In this document: in pieces, positions 2,605-47,727 of the stretch
Layout of the letters: each line of letters opens with the position of its first letter
Position numbering within the stretch: the stretch's first letter is position 1
Assembly: GCF_025628885.1 (NCBI RefSeq)
Contig: NZ_JAOTIF010000001.1
Span: forward strand, 186,001-250,000
Length of the DNA stretch: 64,000 nt
Reading direction: 5' to 3'
DNA from: Paraflavisolibacter caeni
GTDB lineage: Bacteria > Bacteroidota > Bacteroidia > Chitinophagales > Chitinophagaceae
The notes under the pieces: model-generated
Told to the model about the DNA's origin: nothing
Database searches by the model: none
Seen by the model: the letters and a program-made list of their open reading frames with translations, nothing else
Position numbers and translations under genes: made by a program

Positions 2605-2681
2605 GATCCTTCGTACCTCAAGTATACCTGAAGCATACCATCAGTATACCTAGAGTATGACAACAGTATGCCTCCTTCGTT
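2605..2681. repeat. 11-bp phased degenerate tandem array (array A, 7 units)
   Basis: Seven consecutive 11-bp units can be read from 2605: GATCCTTCGTA, CCTCAAGTATA, CCTGAAGCATA, CCATCAGTATA, CCTAGAGTATG, ACAACAGTATG, CCTCCTTCGTT. The central ones share CCTnnAGTATA. A TA step recurs once per unit, close to one helical turn. The array lies upstream of the minus-strand remnant at 2312-2476 and some 470 bp before the susC-like gene. Confidence 0.7.
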
Positions 2682-41850: not shown

Positions 41851-42302
41851 GGTTCGGTTAAACATAAAATGATCCTCTGGTTGTTGCTTCATCATCTCAT
41901 TTTAAATAATAAAAAGGTGTTTTTCATAGGCTTCTTCCTAAATCAACACTTGACACACTTCATTATTGGGTCTTGAATTTTTTAGGGCAGAATCAGTGAA
42001 ACGGGCCTTTATCTGGCTTGTCCAAACTGGCTTATTTGAATCAACTGTGCAAATAAGAATTACTAGATCGCTTTTTTTATTGATCTCAATTAATTCATTG
42101 CCAAATTAATCAATGTTTATAGCAATGTCAATATGAGCCTACATCTCAATGCACTATCATTGATTGTAACAACAAGACATTGTTTTCAAAGCGCTTAACC
42201 TTACTCCATTTGGTAAAATCTTACCAACATAATGTAATATATACCTGAGGATCAAGCTGATTGACTGCCTTGAAGTACTTTAGGTTTCAAATCTTGCTTT
42301 AT
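41851..42302. other. intergenic region upstream of the DUF3826 gene
   Basis: About 450 bp. Holds TTGGTAA (42210-42216) and TTACCAA (42221-42227), a perfect 7-bp inverted repeat around AATC that could be a regulator site 76 bp before the start. Also AAGCGCTT at 42189-42196, an 8-bp palindrome. A 35-codon frame at 41869-41976 has no support. Confidence 0.4.
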
Positions 42303-43031
42303 ATGAGAAAATATGCAAAGAAGCCCGGCTTGATCTGTACAGTTTTATTGTTGGCAACTACGATGTCCTTTTCTGCCCATGCACAAACACAGGCCGCGGC
42401 CATCTCTACAATGAGTGCTGAAGCCAAAGCAAAGTCAGATGTGGATCAGGAAAAGAAAGCTGCAGAGTGGGTGTCTTCCCTCAACCTGAACGATGTTTCA
42501 AAAGAAGACCGCCTGAAGACACTGATTGCGACTCATTTAAAAACCATCCGCGACTGGCACAACGAACATCTTATTACAACTGTTCCCGCTGGTATTAATC
42601 CAGTGACAGGTAAACGTCTGAGCGAATTGGATAGGCAGATCATCGCAAATTCAGCCATGCCTCAATCTGTTCACCAGGACCTGATGGCTGGTCTGCGCAA
42701 AGACCTCTCCGAAGAGCAGGTAGAAGTTATTCTTGATAAATACACCGTCGGCAAAGTGGCTTTCACATTGAAGGGCTATCAGGCTATTGTGCCAAACATG
42801 ACGCCTGAAGAAGAGGCTTTTGTTTTGACTAACCTGAAACTGGCTCGCGAACAAGCAATTGACTTCAAAAACATGAATCAGATTTCAGCCATCTTTGAAA
42901 TCTATAAAACCCAGTGCGAGCAGTATTTCAACACACACGGCCGTAATTGGAGAGAAATGTATAAAGCTTATACAGATGCTGTAAAAGCCAAAAAGGCCGC
43001 CGAAAAAGCTGCCGCTAAACCGGCTCAATAG
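42303..43031 (+). CDS. DUF3826 domain-containing exported protein
   Basis: ATG 42303 (MRKYAKKPGLICTVLLLATT) gives 242 aa with a signal peptide ending at SAHAQ. The body matches DUF3826: KAAEWVSSLNLNDVSKEDRL, THLKTIRDWHNEH, GINPVTGKRLSELDRQIIA, DKYTVGKVAFTLKGYQAIVP, AIFEIYKTQCEQYFNTHGRN. The tail is Lys/Ala-rich. Function unknown; such genes are often near polysaccharide-utilisation genes, but here it stands alone and is followed by its own terminator. Confidence 0.88.
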   Translation: MRKYAKKPGLICTVLLLATTMSFSAHAQTQAAAISTMSAEAKAKSDVDQEKKAAEWVSSLNLNDVSKEDRLKTLIATHLKTIRDWHNEHLITTVPAGINPVTGKRLSELDRQIIANSAMPQSVHQDLMAGLRKDLSEEQVEVILDKYTVGKVAFTLKGYQAIVPNMTPEEEAFVLTNLKLAREQAIDFKNMNQISAIFEIYKTQCEQYFNTHGRNWREMYKAYTDAVKAKKAAEKAAAKPAQ

Positions 43032-43066
43032 CACATCTAATAATTATTGTATAAAAGTTTACGAAC

Positions 43067-43098
43067 AGGCTGCTCTTATATTACAAAGCAGCCTTTTT
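43067..43098 (+). terminator. Rho-independent terminator of the DUF3826 gene
   Basis: Stem AGGCTGCT (43067-43074) / AGCAGCCT (43087-43094) with a 12-base loop, followed by T residues. Confidence 0.85.
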
Positions 43099-43140
43099 GT
43101 TAATCCCTAAAACTCCTTCACAACCCCAAACCTCAAAATC

Positions 43141-43196
43141 CCGAAATCCGAAATCCCACCTCCGAAATCCCCTCTATCATCTACCCTCTATCATCT
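43141..43196. repeat. short direct repeats, pyrimidine-rich
   Basis: CCGAAATCC occurs three times (43141, 43148, 43162), and CCCTCTATCATCT twice (43170-43182 and 43184-43196). ATTCGTCATTC, the dispersed word found after copA and ald, follows at 43207-43217. The patch lies between the terminator and the 11-bp array. Confidence 0.6.
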
Positions 43197-43221
43197 TTTC
43201 TACCCCATTCGTCATTCCAAG

Positions 43222-43375
43222 CCTATACCTTATAGTAATCTTATAGAAAACTTACAGTAAAGTTATAGTAAACTTATAGTAGAGTTATAGTAAACATCCT
43301 CCGTACATACTCCCTAGATACTCCATATATACTCCGTATCCACTCCGTACCTAAGGCGTATCTAAGCCATAGCTG
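43222..43375. repeat. 11-bp phased degenerate tandem array (array B, 14 units)
   Basis: Fourteen consecutive 11-bp units without a slip. The first half follows TAGTAAACTTA (units such as TAGTAATCTTA, TAGAAAACTTA, CAGTAAAGTTA, TAGTAGAGTTA). From 43299 the units follow CTCCGTAnnTA (CTCCGTACATA, CTCCCTAGATA, CTCCATATATA, CTCCGTATCCA, CTCCGTACCTA), then AGGCGTATCTA. The array ends 34 bp before the ileS -7 box. There is no long open frame through it. Confidence 0.85.
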
Positions 43376-43409
43376 CCTTACTCTCCCCCAACTTGTGAAC
43401 TCCATTTCG

Positions 43410-43417
43410 TACCTTTG
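43410..43417 (+). promoter_or_regulatory. -7 box of ileS
   Basis: TACCTTTG matches TAnnTTTG exactly, 30 bp before ATG 43448. No TTTG at the expected -33 distance; a TTG lies 14 bp upstream. Confidence 0.55.
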
Positions 43418-43447
43418 CAAACATTTTTAATTTAAGTCATCTGCCTT

Positions 43448-46400
43448 ATGGCCAATCGCTATAAAGAGTTTAAGCATCTTAACCTGCCTTCCATTGAAAA
43501 AGAGATCCTCCAAAAATGGGAGAGCGAAAACGCTTTTGAAAAAAGTATTGAAATCCGTCAGGACGCCCAGCCTTTCGTCTTTTACGAAGGTCCCCCCAGC
43601 GCCAATGGTATGCCGGGCATCCACCACGTCATTTCCCGCACCCTGAAGGATCTCGTATGCCGCTATAAAACCATGAGCGGCTTCAAAGTACAGCGCAAAG
43701 GCGGTTGGGATACCCATGGCTTACCTGTAGAGCTTGGAGTAGAAAAGGAATTAGGCATTACCAAAGAGGATATTGGCAAAAAGATCTCCGTGGCAGAATA
43801 CAACCAGAAATGCCGCGAAGCCGTTTTGCGCTATAAGGACAAGTGGGACGACCTGACCACCAAAATGGGTTACTGGGTCGACCTGAAAGATCCCTATATT
43901 ACTTTTACCAATGAATATATTGAAAGCCTGTGGTGGTGCCTGAAACAGCTCTACCAAAAGGAATTGCTGTATAAAAGCGTCTCAATCCAGCCCTATTCAC
44001 CCGCCGCTGGTACAGGTTTAAGCTCTCACGAGCTCAACCAGCCCGGTACCTACAAAATGGTAAAGGATACCAGCGCCATTGCCATGTTTAAGGTGGTGCA
44101 AAACGAAAAGAGCAAGTTCCTTTTCGATGCGGCTCCAACCACGGAAGTATTCTTCCTCGCCTGGACGACCACTCCTTGGACCCTTCCTTCTAACCTCGGT
44201 CTGACAGTAGGTTCCAACATTGACTACGTCTTGGTGAAAACCTTCAACCCCTATACCCACCTTCCTGTAAATCTTGTATTAGCCAAAGCGCTCCTGGGCA
44301 AGTACTTTAAGCCCGAAGAAGAGAATGGTGATTTTGAAGGATATACTGAAGGAACAAAACACCTGCCCTGGACAATCCTGGCTGAATTCAAAGGAAAAGA
44401 TCTGGAAGGTCTGGAATATGAGCAATTACTTCCATATGAGGCCAATTCTTTGGAAGCCATCAAGGCAGTAACGCCTGATGCTAAACCTTTCCGGGTGTTG
44501 CTGGGCGACTTCGTGACTACCGAAGATGGTACTGGTATCGTGCATACAGCTCCAGCCTTTGGTGCGGATGACTTTAAGGTAGGTAAGAAATTCAATATTG
44601 GTATTTTAACCTTGGTAGACCGCGAAGGAAAGTTCGTGGATGGCCTGGGCGAATTCAGCAAACGCTATATAAAAGATTATAAAGACGAGGCTGGTTATGT
44701 AGATGTAAACGTGGATATCTCTGTAAAACTGAAAAAGGAGAACAGGGCTTTCAAGGTTGAAAAATACGAACACAGCTACCCCCATTGCTGGCGTACCGAC
44801 AAGCCGGTGGTTTACTATCCTTTGGATGCTTGGTTCATCCGTACAACGGCTTTGCGCGAAAGGATGGTCGAGCTGAACAAAACCATCAATTGGAAACCAA
44901 AAGCTACTGGCGAAGGCCGCTTTGGCAACTGGTTGGAAAATATGGTGGACTGGAACCTCAGCCGTAGTCGCTACTGGGGCACGCCGCTTCCGATCTGGAG
45001 AACGGAGGAGGGCACCGAAGAAAAATGCATTGGCTCAATTGAAGAGCTCAATGCCGAGATCCGTAAAGCCAATGAGGTTTTAGGCGGTGATGTAAATACC
45101 CATTACCTGCACGACGGCATTCTCGACCTCCACAAGCCTTATGTAGACGACGTGATCCTCGTGTCAGACTCAGGCCAGCCAATGCGCCGCGAGCCAGACC
45201 TTATCGATGTTTGGTTTGATAGTGGTGCCATGCCTTATGCCCAATGGCACTTTCCTTTCGAAAAGCAGGAAACCTTTAATCATAACTTCCCTGCCGACTT
45301 TATCGCTGAAGGTGTGGATCAAACGCGTGGATGGTTCTATACCCTCCATGCCCTTGGCGTAATGCTGTTTGATAGCGTGGCCTTCAAAACCTGCGTTTCC
45401 AATGGCTTGGTTCTGGACAAGGCCGGCAATAAAATGAGTAAACGCCTCGGCAATGTGATCGATCCGTTTAAAACAATTGCCGACTTTGGCGCCGATGCCA
45501 CCCGCTGGTACCTGGTGACCAACGCATCTCCTTGGGACAACTTGAAGTTTGATATTGAAGGTATTCGCGAGGTACAGCGCAAATTCTTTGGTACATTATA
45601 TAATACATATCAATTCTTCGCGCTCTATGCCAATGTAGACGGATTTACGTTCAAGGAAGATTACATCCCGGTAAAAGATCGTCCTGAAATTGACAAGTGG
45701 ATCCTTTCTTCCCTCCATACTTTGATCAAAAAGACCAAAGCTGCATTTGACGATTATGAGCCAACCACAGCTGGCCGCTTGATCGAGGACTTTGTGGATG
45801 AACACCTAAGTAATTGGTATGTACGCCTTTGTCGCCGCCGTTTCTGGAAAGGAGAGTACGAATTGGATAAAATTTGCGCTTACCAAACCCTTTACGAGTG
45901 CTTGGAAACTGTAGTTCGGTTGATGGCGCCTATTTCTCCGTTCTTCAGTGATGAGCTTTACCGCAACTTAAATGCTGTAACCGGTAGGCATACCGCTGAA
46001 TCTGTTCACCACTTGTTATTCCCGGATGCTGATGAGAAATTAATTGATGTGCTGCTGGAAGAAAGAATGCAATTAGCCCAGGATGCTTCATCTCTTATTC
46101 TTTCTCTTAGAAAGAAGGCGAATATTAAAGTTCGGCAACCTCTTCAAAAGGTGTTGATTCCTGTACTCAACCCTGCTATGGAACAACAATTGCACAGAGT
46201 ACAAGAACTTATACTCGCAGAAGTGAATGTAAAAGCAATTGAGTTCCTTACAGATACGGAAGGCTTTATTAAAAAGAAAATAAAACCTAACTTTCAGGCC
46301 TTGGGAAAGAAGCTCGGCCCTAAAATGAAAGAGGTAAATACTAAATTGTCAAAATTTAGTCAGCATGATATTACTTTTTTTGAAAAAGAAGGTCGATATT

Positions 46401-46795
46401 CACTTCCCGTTGGAGATGATATTGTAGAGTTGACCCTTAGCGAGGTGGAAATTAGTAGTGAGGATATCCCAGGTTGGACAGTTGCCAGTAAGGGGCCTTT
46501 AACAGTAGCCCTTGATATCAATGTTACACCTGAATTGGTTCAGGAGGGTGATGCCAGGGAATTCGTAAATAGGATTCAGAAAATCAGGAAGGATAGTGGT
46601 TTTGATGTTACAGATAGGATAGAAGTGAAAGTGGCTGCCAATAATGGCATACAGCAGTCCTTGGCTAAGTTTAACAATTATATTTGCGCTGAAATTCTGG
46701 CAGATAAGCTAGAGTTAGCACCCGATATTAACGATGGCATAGAAATAGAAGTAAATGACAATGTGTTGAAGGTCATCGTTTCTAAAAAGGAGTAA
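43448..46795 (+). CDS. ileS: isoleucyl-tRNA synthetase
   Basis: Charges tRNA-Ile; class I synthetase of 1115 aa. The HIGH-type motif is GMPGIHHVISR, the KMSKS-type motif is AGNKMSKRLGN, and editing-domain features TTTPWTLPSNLGLTVG and FVTTEDGTGIVHTAPAFGAD are present. GWDTHGLPVELGVEKELGI and YNQKCREAVLRYKDKW resemble the eukaryote-like type 2 enzymes, and no C-terminal zinc-finger cysteines are seen. That class is known for mupirocin resistance, so resistance can be suspected but not shown. Followed by the DksA-like gene after 5 bp. Confidence 0.96.
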   Translation: MANRYKEFKHLNLPSIEKEILQKWESENAFEKSIEIRQDAQPFVFYEGPPSANGMPGIHHVISRTLKDLVCRYKTMSGFKVQRKGGWDTHGLPVELGVEKELGITKEDIGKKISVAEYNQKCREAVLRYKDKWDDLTTKMGYWVDLKDPYITFTNEYIESLWWCLKQLYQKELLYKSVSIQPYSPAAGTGLSSHELNQPGTYKMVKDTSAIAMFKVVQNEKSKFLFDAAPTTEVFFLAWTTTPWTLPSNLGLTVGSNIDYVLVKTFNPYTHLPVNLVLAKALLGKYFKPEEENGDFEGYTEGTKHLPWTILAEFKGKDLEGLEYEQLLPYEANSLEAIKAVTPDAKPFRVLLGDFVTTEDGTGIVHTAPAFGADDFKVGKKFNIGILTLVDREGKFVDGLGEFSKRYIKDYKDEAGYVDVNVDISVKLKKENRAFKVEKYEHSYPHCWRTDKPVVYYPLDAWFIRTTALRERMVELNKTINWKPKATGEGRFGNWLENMVDWNLSRSRYWGTPLPIWRTEEGTEEKCIGSIEELNAEIRKANEVLGGDVNTHYLHDGILDLHKPYVDDVILVSDSGQPMRREPDLIDVWFDSGAMPYAQWHFPFEKQETFNHNFPADFIAEGVDQTRGWFYTLHALGVMLFDSVAFKTCVSNGLVLDKAGNKMSKRLGNVIDPFKTIADFGADATRWYLVTNASPWDNLKFDIEGIREVQRKFFGTLYNTYQFFALYANVDGFTFKEDYIPVKDRPEIDKWILSSLHTLIKKTKAAFDDYEPTTAGRLIEDFVDEHLSNWYVRLCRRRFWKGEYELDKICAYQTLYECLETVVRLMAPISPFFSDELYRNLNAVTGRHTAESVHHLLFPDADEKLIDVLLEERMQLAQDASSLILSLRKKANIKVRQPLQKVLIPVLNPAMEQQLHRVQELILAEVNVKAIEFLTDTEGFIKKKIKPNFQALGKKLGPKMKEVNTKLSKFSQHDITFFEKEGRYSLPVGDDIVELTLSEVEISSEDIPGWTVASKGPLTVALDINVTPELVQEGDAREFVNRIQKIRKDSGFDVTDRIEVKVAANNGIQQSLAKFNNYICAEILADKLELAPDINDGIEIEVNDNVLKVIVSKKE

Positions 46796-46800
46796 TTGGT

Positions 46801-47727
46801 ATGGCAACAAAAAAAGCGGCGCCTAAAAAGGAGGCAAAAGCTGCAACACCCATGAAAAAAACTGCAGCAAAACAAGCTGCAAGTCAGAAACCTGTTAAAG
46901 CTACCGGATCAATAAAGTCCGAAGCTAAAAAGCCAGTGAAAAAAGCGGCTCCTGCTAAACGTTCTGTGGCTGCAGTTAAGGTCGCAAAACCTGCTGCCTC
47001 ATCCATAAAGGATAAGAAGGTGGCTACTAGGAATGGAGCCCATTCTGTAGGAGCCCATTCTGTAAAAAAAGGAACCGCGGTTGGAAAAACGGCTGCACCG
47101 GTAAAAAAATCCCCGGCAGTTGCACAGCATGAGCCTGCAAAACCTCCTGTTACTGTAAAGAAGGCTTCCGTTGAAGCTCCGACAGTTCAGGAAGTAAAGC
47201 CCGCTATTAAGCCTTTAGAAAAACCAGCATCCAGGAAAGAATCGGTAAAGCCTGTTTCTGTACCAAAAACAACAACATCAAAAGCCGTTAAATACGAACC
47301 TGAGTTTACTAAATCAGTGTTAGACTATAATAATCAAAATCAAGAACAACAGAAACCTACTATGCGATATTCTGATGCCGAGTTGGCCGAATTTAGAGAG
47401 CTGATCAATAGGAAACTAGAAACAGCCAAAAAAGAACTTGCTTATTTACAAGGCTTGATCACAAGGAAGGATGAGAGCGGTGAAATGGATGAAGGTCGTT
47501 ATATGACAATGGAAGATGGAAGTATGAGTATGGAAAGAGAACAATTGAGCCAAATGGCTAGCCGCCAGATTCAATTTATTGACCACCTGGAAAAAGCCAT
47601 TATGCGCATTGAAAACAAAACTTATGGCGTTTGCCGCGTAACTGGCAAATTGATCGATAAAGCTCGTTTGCGCGCAGTGCCTCATGCTACTCTTAGCATC
47701 GAAGCAAAACAAATGATGAATAAATAA
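46801..47727 (+). CDS. TraR/DksA-like protein with histone-H1-like N-terminal tail
   Basis: A 308-aa protein in two parts. Residues 1 to about 175 are Lys/Ala/Pro repeats (KKAAPKKEAKAATPMKKTAA), like histone H1 tails, with a small duplication (GAHSVGAHSV). Residues 180-308 are DksA/TraR-like: a coiled coil (MRYSDAELAEFREL to IDHLEKAIMRIENK), then YGVCRVTGKLIDKARLRAVP and HATLSIEAKQ. Only Cys278 of the four zinc cysteines remains. It may bind RNA polymerase and nucleic acid. It is cotranscribed with ileS; in related genomes lspA often follows, but here a terminator does. Confidence 0.88.
   Translation: MATKKAAPKKEAKAATPMKKTAAKQAASQKPVKATGSIKSEAKKPVKKAAPAKRSVAAVKVAKPAASSIKDKKVATRNGAHSVGAHSVKKGTAVGKTAAPVKKSPAVAQHEPAKPPVTVKKASVEAPTVQEVKPAIKPLEKPASRKESVKPVSVPKTTTSKAVKYEPEFTKSVLDYNNQNQEQQKPTMRYSDAELAEFRELINRKLETAKKELAYLQGLITRKDESGEMDEGRYMTMEDGSMSMEREQLSQMASRQIQFIDHLEKAIMRIENKTYGVCRVTGKLIDKARLRAVPHATLSIEAKQMMNK

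Follow-up and report, generated by a model that had tools for sequence, protein, structure and literature searches.

The window analysed here is the whole 64,000-nucleotide stretch of Paraflavisolibacter caeni DNA. Between its ileS gene and the preceding ORF it carries a tandem array at positions 43222-43375, which an earlier note, made from the sequence by reading, had described as 14 units of 11 bp in two sub-families. Both descriptions hold on re-reading: the array divides without a single slip, and the sub-families, one of type II words and one of CTCC words, are real. The array and its neighbours are listed below, together with a second 11-bp array in the window.

42261..43031, + strand: upstream ORF of 256 aa, without an NCBIfam match
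43067..43098, + strand: intrinsic-terminator-like hairpin with a T run, 3' of the upstream ORF, identified by sequence reading with no program score
43117..43196, + strand: 7-bp-period stretch with units AAATCCG and CCCTCTATCATCTA, lying within the longer match of several copies
43204..43218, + strand: CCCATTCGTCATTCC module, which also precedes several type II arrays and occurs at other sites of contig C1
43230..43295, + strand: sub-array 1, type II words TTATAGTAATC, TTATAGAAAAC, TTACAGTAAAG, TTATAGTAAAC, TTATAGTAGAG and TTATAGTAAAC, in a word order common to 20 ungapped copies, this one included
43296..43375, + strand: sub-array 2, CTCC words from ATCCTCCGTAC to CTAAGCCATAG, in the same register as sub-array 1
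43410..43417, + strand: TACCTTTG, -7-box-like by its sequence
43448..46795, + strand: ileS, isoleucine--tRNA ligase (TIGR00392, 1012 bits, cut-off 621)
2607..2676, + strand: second 11-bp array, made of type III words such as ATACCTGAAGC, with GATCCTTCGTACC as its left end

In other copies the element begins at about 43228-43230, and the first unit of this array (43222-43232) is weak. The -7 consensus of Bacteroidota is TAnnTTTG, and the 34 bp given earlier for the distance from the array end to TACCTTTG is correct. The array lies downstream of the terminator-like hairpin and upstream of TACCTTTG, which makes transcription from the ileS promoter improbable; judging by position, the array is probably not transcribed from it. 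No ORF of at least 60 aa covers the array, in line with the claim that it has no coding frame, and since the period is also not a multiple of three, we reject a coding reading. Similarly, CRISPR repeats are about 23-47 bp long with unique spacers between them, and the array was rightly held to be different, its period of 11 being continuous and spacers being absent. Among the named genomes returned for IleS, in a comparison from which records very close to this genome may have been left out, the best match is that of Flavisolibacter longurius (83%). Elsewhere in the window, the array at 2607-2676 lies between divergent genes by crude ORF calls, and positions 46801-47727 encode a DksA-like C-terminal domain (under the NCBIfam cut-off) after a long Lys/Ala-rich N-terminal part.

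The autocorrelation that the earlier note had proposed gives a self-identity of 0.699 at lag 11 for positions 43222-43375, against 0.274 in dinucleotide shuffles (z 10.6, 0 of 2000). Echoes follow at lags 22, 33 and 44 (z 9.0, 6.9 and 4.8); for the remaining lags in the range 5-44, z is at most 1.1. No other stretch of equal length in the window has so strong a lag-11 signal, and the value of the array is unmatched anywhere in the window at any other lag from 6 to 30. Tandem Repeats Finder also calls period 11 at these positions.

A BLAST search with window positions 43040-43450 against the same genome returns 47 matches. At least 19 other places cover most of the ileS array at 75-96% identity (40 best of 128 candidates scored), so that a search for further arrays, also proposed in the earlier note, finds the same words in the same order across the genome. 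The degenerate word order common to the copies indicates block copying of an array already formed, rather than growth at ileS. The suggestion of a decaying repeat that once expanded by slippage thus survives in one part: a slippage history is likely, and growth at ileS is wrong, as the irregularities are common to the 19 other copies. We further note that GTA recurring four times at intervals of 11 bases gives 110+105 hits in this genome, while the reversed pattern gives 4+3 and GTA at period 10 gives 2+0 (these counts are hits, not loci, and long arrays are counted many times). Contig C1 (1.0 Mb) holds 29 lag-11 segments, 69-288 bp long, at 26 loci; third-order Markov sequence, compared with the first 800 kb, yields zero repeat segments at lags 5-40.

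The segments are mostly intergenic: with genes taken as longest-ORF calls, 25 of the 29 are clear of ORFs of at least 90 aa, and the remaining four overlap ORFs over 0.08, 0.20, 0.25 and 1.00 of their length. Once ORFs shorter than 300 bases or covering more than half an array had been removed (781 reduced to 769, the ORF over 407245-407349 among those removed), nine of the 26 loci lie between divergent genes (7.9 expected), one between convergent genes (2.7) and 16 between codirectional genes (15.3), which fits chance placement. The gene on the 3' side is codirectional for 24 of 30 type IV copies (P 0.017 against the expectation of 0.6 from the 26-locus count, uncorrected for multiple tests), for 13 of 23 type II copies and for 11 of 18 copies of an element in a congeneric genome, G015. 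The type IV tendency is thus missing in type II and in G015, and a terminator or promoter role based on gene orientation is rejected.

Four word families make up these arrays, mixed and mostly in one register. CTCC words come after type II words, as at ileS, and elsewhere also after a different first half of type I words (TTATAGAGACC). Type III arrays have the left end CATCCTTCGTWGC and the right end CACGAAACAGATTTTGACCCC, and type III alone has ends (TTTCGTGCTTCAG and CTTCGTTGCTTCAG) that read by eye as imperfect inverted repeats. Type IV words (CTACTTACTCC, GTACCTAAGCC, GACCATCCTTC and others) end in a conserved 140-bp core, GATCTGAATTGAGCAAATGCTC...AAGTTTTGAACCCCC, and the core region has at least 40 scored places, query included (40 best of 127 candidates scored); in 30 aligned copies (core plus 45 array bases) mean column identity is 90%. 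The families are also joined as a mosaic: at least three further places carry a match of about 430-460 bp to a III-IV composite, and at least five more carry type IV with the end of type III. Stretches of period 7 take part as well: of the 22 segments with lag 7 found in the 1 Mb, 10 have an 11-bp array no more than 150 bp away.

Register is kept across this variation. The distance across arrays between fixed modules is constant modulo 11 in 18 of 18 type IV, 9 of 12 type II and 7 of 8 type III cases, with type IV distances of 89 to 144 bp falling into six length classes. Where non-array sequence is included, 15 copies measured from the left end of type IV to the core fall into six residue classes, and 13 copies measured from CATTCGTCATTCC to the type II array fall into five. 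Among gaps in pairwise alignments, in which pairs and copies are non-independent, those in type IV arrays comprise 454 multiples of 11 and 152 others, the latter often summing to 11 (1 + 10, 4 + 7) in what looks like splitting by the aligner; those in the type IV core comprise 0 multiples of 11 and 568 others, many of them 1-bp indels. Type II stretches give 113 and 630, counts that are not clean, partly since the 165-base stretches overrun the shared part. Whole-word slippage accounts for the 11-bp steps. It may be joined by selection on register, which could be reflected in the abundance of 11-bp gaps in type IV arrays, compared with the 1-bp indels of the core.

The spectrum of periods is narrow. 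At a threshold of 0.66 over 1 Mb, and across 14 lags from which multiples of 3 were left out, 28 segments are found at lag 11, 20 at lag 22, 18 at lag 7 and six at lag 14, with one each at lags 17, 20 and 23 and none at lags 5, 8, 10, 13, 16, 19 and 25. Within that set of lags, the repeat periods of this 1 Mb are almost exclusively 11, 7 and their doubles.

The region upstream of ileS could be read in 15 of the 17 other genomes of the genus, and the array is absent in all 15, where the best lag-11 identity is 0.36-0.52 against 0.82 in this genome. TACCTTTG is kept in 11 of the 13 relatives examined for it, and four of the 15 have a 7-bp-period repeat upstream of ileS (lag-7 identity 0.66-0.82). 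In a wider set of 80 named loci, 76 of which have at least 200 bases upstream, only that of Niastella yeongjuensis carries an 11-bp array of other words, with CTGACAGGGAC words just upstream of ileS (locus L103, about 2721-2808); at a lag identity of 0.64, a lag-7 repeat occurs in five of the 76 and a lag-10 repeat in none. With at least 19 copies elsewhere and absence in every genus relative read, the idea that the array belongs to ileS finds no support.

Searches of other genomes give a similar picture. The type IV core was matched in one of 147 family genomes, this one (at most the five best candidates scored per genome), and the type II element in three of 18 genus genomes, two of which, besides this one, match a simple 7-bp repeat. 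On these matches, the repeat in front of ileS would so far be known in its own genome alone. Arrays of the same period, which the earlier note had proposed to look for in related genomes, are present in several of them with other words. At period 11, eight or more GTA hits are found in 17 of 194 family genomes, and at period 10 in one of 194, the latter mostly a 5-bp microsatellite; for the reversed pattern (ATG) the counts are 16 and 2 of 194. Across the phylum, six of 247 genomes reach eight hits, this one included.

Within the genus, GTA arrays are found in G015 (67+57 hits) and G007 (27+29). G015, a single-contig genome, has an element of its own, with 11-bp words such as TGTACCTCTCC followed by a conserved stretch, in at least 36 places above 100 bits, query included (40 best of 142 candidates scored). 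Samples of 200 kb at threshold 0.66 give three 7-bp repeats and no lag-11 segment in G003; ten 7-bp repeats, two of period 8 and one of period 11 in G012; and one period-11 segment with none of period 7 in G022, the whole genome of which has 57+67 ATG-pattern hits. By eye, words in other species have a similar shape, with TA near the start and C at the end. Two other kinds of repeat were met in these genomes. In G012 (loci L276 and L277), 7-bp repeats are followed by their own reverse complement (TTAGCTG ... CAGCTAA) and would make long heptamer hairpins, and G242 owes most of its hits to palindromic 36-mers (GTACGAAAAGCGTACCATCATGGTACGGAAAGTGTA in form), which are dispersed, of another kind, and fit the same pattern.

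Several known classes of repeat share features with these arrays. The heptamer repeats of cyanobacteria are known as STRRs. Such heptamer arrays and other long SSRs are alike in their short head-to-tail units, mostly intergenic position, many loci, lineage-specific units and variable copy number; passages of three papers describe them in cyanobacteria, in Xanthomonas and, as TAACTGA, in Beggiatoaceae and some Bacteroidetes, and report long SSRs with units of 6-11 bp in certain archaea (PMC4692102, PMC4679880, PMC4060949). Here, in contrast, the unit is 11 bp, the words are degenerate with an order common to dispersed copies, and the repeat has fixed end modules and the conserved 140-bp core. 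There are 226 distinct words among the 328 units of period 11, unlike the near-identical units of a long SSR.

REP/BIME and other interspersed repeats are likewise mosaic and intergenic, in tens of copies or more; the repeat described here, found in one genome of those searched, differs from REP/BIME in having an 11-bp register and lacking both a REP-like palindrome and a Y1 transposase match in its own genome. Y1_Tnp (PF01797) has 0 matches in this genome and 0 in G007, and three partial matches in G015 (33-34 bits, above cut-off); it is matched in 14 of 18 genus genomes, G004 and G010 also being without it. The lack of a match in this genome indicates that a RAYT is not the mobiliser there, and with no palindromic hairpin unit either, assignment to REP/BIME is rejected for this genome. 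As a separate observation, the three genomes of the genus richest in GTA arrays (this one, G007 and G015) are ones in which Y1_Tnp is absent or partial, most others having several. MITE-like elements are also dispersed, non-coding and a few hundred bp long, and the apparent imperfect inverted repeats at type III ends may recall them.

An RNA family is rejected as well. Rfam gave two matches on six loci, both below the gathering score, and among 29 predicted pairs of the type IV core none shows changes on both sides, in 30 copies too similar for this to be very informative. Inverted repeats are limited to one weak pair (18 nt, 78%) in window positions 43100-43440, and none of at least 10 nt was found in a III-IV composite. 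Among the titles and abstract openings listed in a literature search, with subscription journals mostly outside its scope, there was no description of such arrays, and nothing that combined 11-bp units, tandem repeats and Chitinophagaceae.

We favor, at a probability of roughly 0.6, a dispersed repeat that is specific to the lineage, has its 11-bp words renewed through slippage or unequal recombination, and sits at ileS as a passenger. In structure, the element is a string of 11-bp words, degenerate and held in a single register, to which 7-bp-period stretches and fixed end modules are often attached. Copies would spread by transposition or recombination, and the number of words would rise and fall through slippage in replication or through unequal recombination; the copy upstream of the ileS promoter would then play no particular part at that gene. 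That periods 11 and 7 are preferred would stem from the copying or slipping machinery, and a passage of PMC4692102 reports the idea that heptamer repeats are tied to the length of DNA held by the polymerase. Several observations count against this reading. Periods 8, 10 and 13 would be expected of ordinary slippage, and at threshold 0.66 they are absent from the 1 Mb; no mobilising enzyme was found, the Y1 family being unmatched in this genome; the gap pattern of type IV arrays could mean selection on register; and words of similar shape, by eye, occur in other species.

Register and phase would likewise be explained by a phased binding platform, in which every 11-bp word would place an identical site on one side of the helix, to be bound, as a filament or wrap, by a DNA-binding protein that belongs to the host or to the element's own copying machinery. 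Protein and site would co-evolve, so that word vocabularies differ among species. In keeping with this, register is kept across different word families, period-11 arrays recur across the family, and the share of units with TA at its best phase is 57% at period 11 (328 units) and 26-29% at periods 9, 10, 12 and 13. Across 20 type II copies, however, conservation at TA positions is not significantly above that at other positions (P 0.23), no protein was identified and position relative to genes is not robust, and we regard such a platform as unlikely.

The strand bias of the arrays bears on another reading, in which transcripts of the C-rich strand, unstructured, G-poor and with a C about every 11 nt, let Rho end stray intergenic transcription. 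On the C-richer strand of the 29 segments the C/G ratio is 1.15-2.73, average folding is weak (mean z -0.37 against -1.45 on the other strand; mean energy per 100 nt -14 against -26 kcal/mol), and C occupies one phase in 55% of words. This strand resembles in form the rut rule given in a passage of PMC6407284 (78 nt, C>G, C every 11-13 nt), and neighbouring 7-bp stretches have the same C-richer strand in 10 of 10 pairs, judged by eye. Several findings make this role improbable. Arrays are not in excess downstream of genes, the 5'-side gene pointing into the element in 13 of 30 type IV, 9 of 23 type II and 6 of 18 G015 copies, and 9 of the 26 loci are divergent. Only five of 29 arrays have a strand skew beyond the 90th percentile for intergenic DNA, three of 29 C-rich strands fold at z < -3 (three segments fold at z < -5 on the G-rich strand), and in G007 the listed words show no clear excess of C over G.

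Phasing of bendable steps at 11 bp could also wrap about 130 bp around gyrase or a nucleoid protein. Gyrase-binding interspersed elements are known in E. coli. Its gyrase motif, as given in a passage of PMC6379681, is 130 bp long, its flanks having a GC periodicity of 10.75 bp, and is close in length and period to the arrays, the segments of which span 69-288 bp and have three times the GC power of shuffles at 11 bp. Here, unlike in the gyrase motif, the 11-bp harmonic does not dominate the GC signal, power at 5.5 and 3.67 bp being higher still, and these harmonics fit sequence words rather than a smooth bend. Predicted bend per 60 bp, from a wedge table, is 56.1 degrees in 19 arrays, 55.7 (sd 15.3) in 554 other intergenic controls and 48.4 in shuffled arrays. 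The A-tract signal outside arrays is weak, with a non-coding AA/TT peak at 11.5 (1.7 times mean power) and a coding peak at 14.0, the edge of the range. Curvature and gyrase-type phasing are not supported as a property of the class, whose bend equals that of other intergenic DNA, and a wrapping site is quite improbable.

That curved or phased DNA stimulates ileS, as the earlier note had suggested, is highly improbable and not supported: the copy at ileS is close to the -7 box and has a high predicted bend of its own (97.5 degrees per 60 bp), yet the class bends no more than intergenic DNA, the array is absent upstream of ileS in the relatives read, and copies abound elsewhere in the genome.

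The dispersed-repeat reading carries a caution, in that a striking array next to an essential gene may not be part of that gene. A bolder possibility, which we hold to be doubtful, is that a dedicated DNA-binding or copying activity of Chitinophagaceae, with one fixed step the size of a helical turn and another of 7 bp, repeatedly writes intergenic arrays of 11-bp words, keeps them in register and disperses them, with a vocabulary for each lineage. If true, such a fixed-step activity would define phased nucleoprotein or copying elements of a new class. A passage of PMC4692102 notes that 7-bp repeats are over-represented in bacteria and calls their cause little studied. The near-binary spectrum of 7 and 11 in the 1 Mb sampled, together with the family-wide period of 11, makes that cause testable, whether it be the footprint of a polymerase, helical phase or a specific protein.
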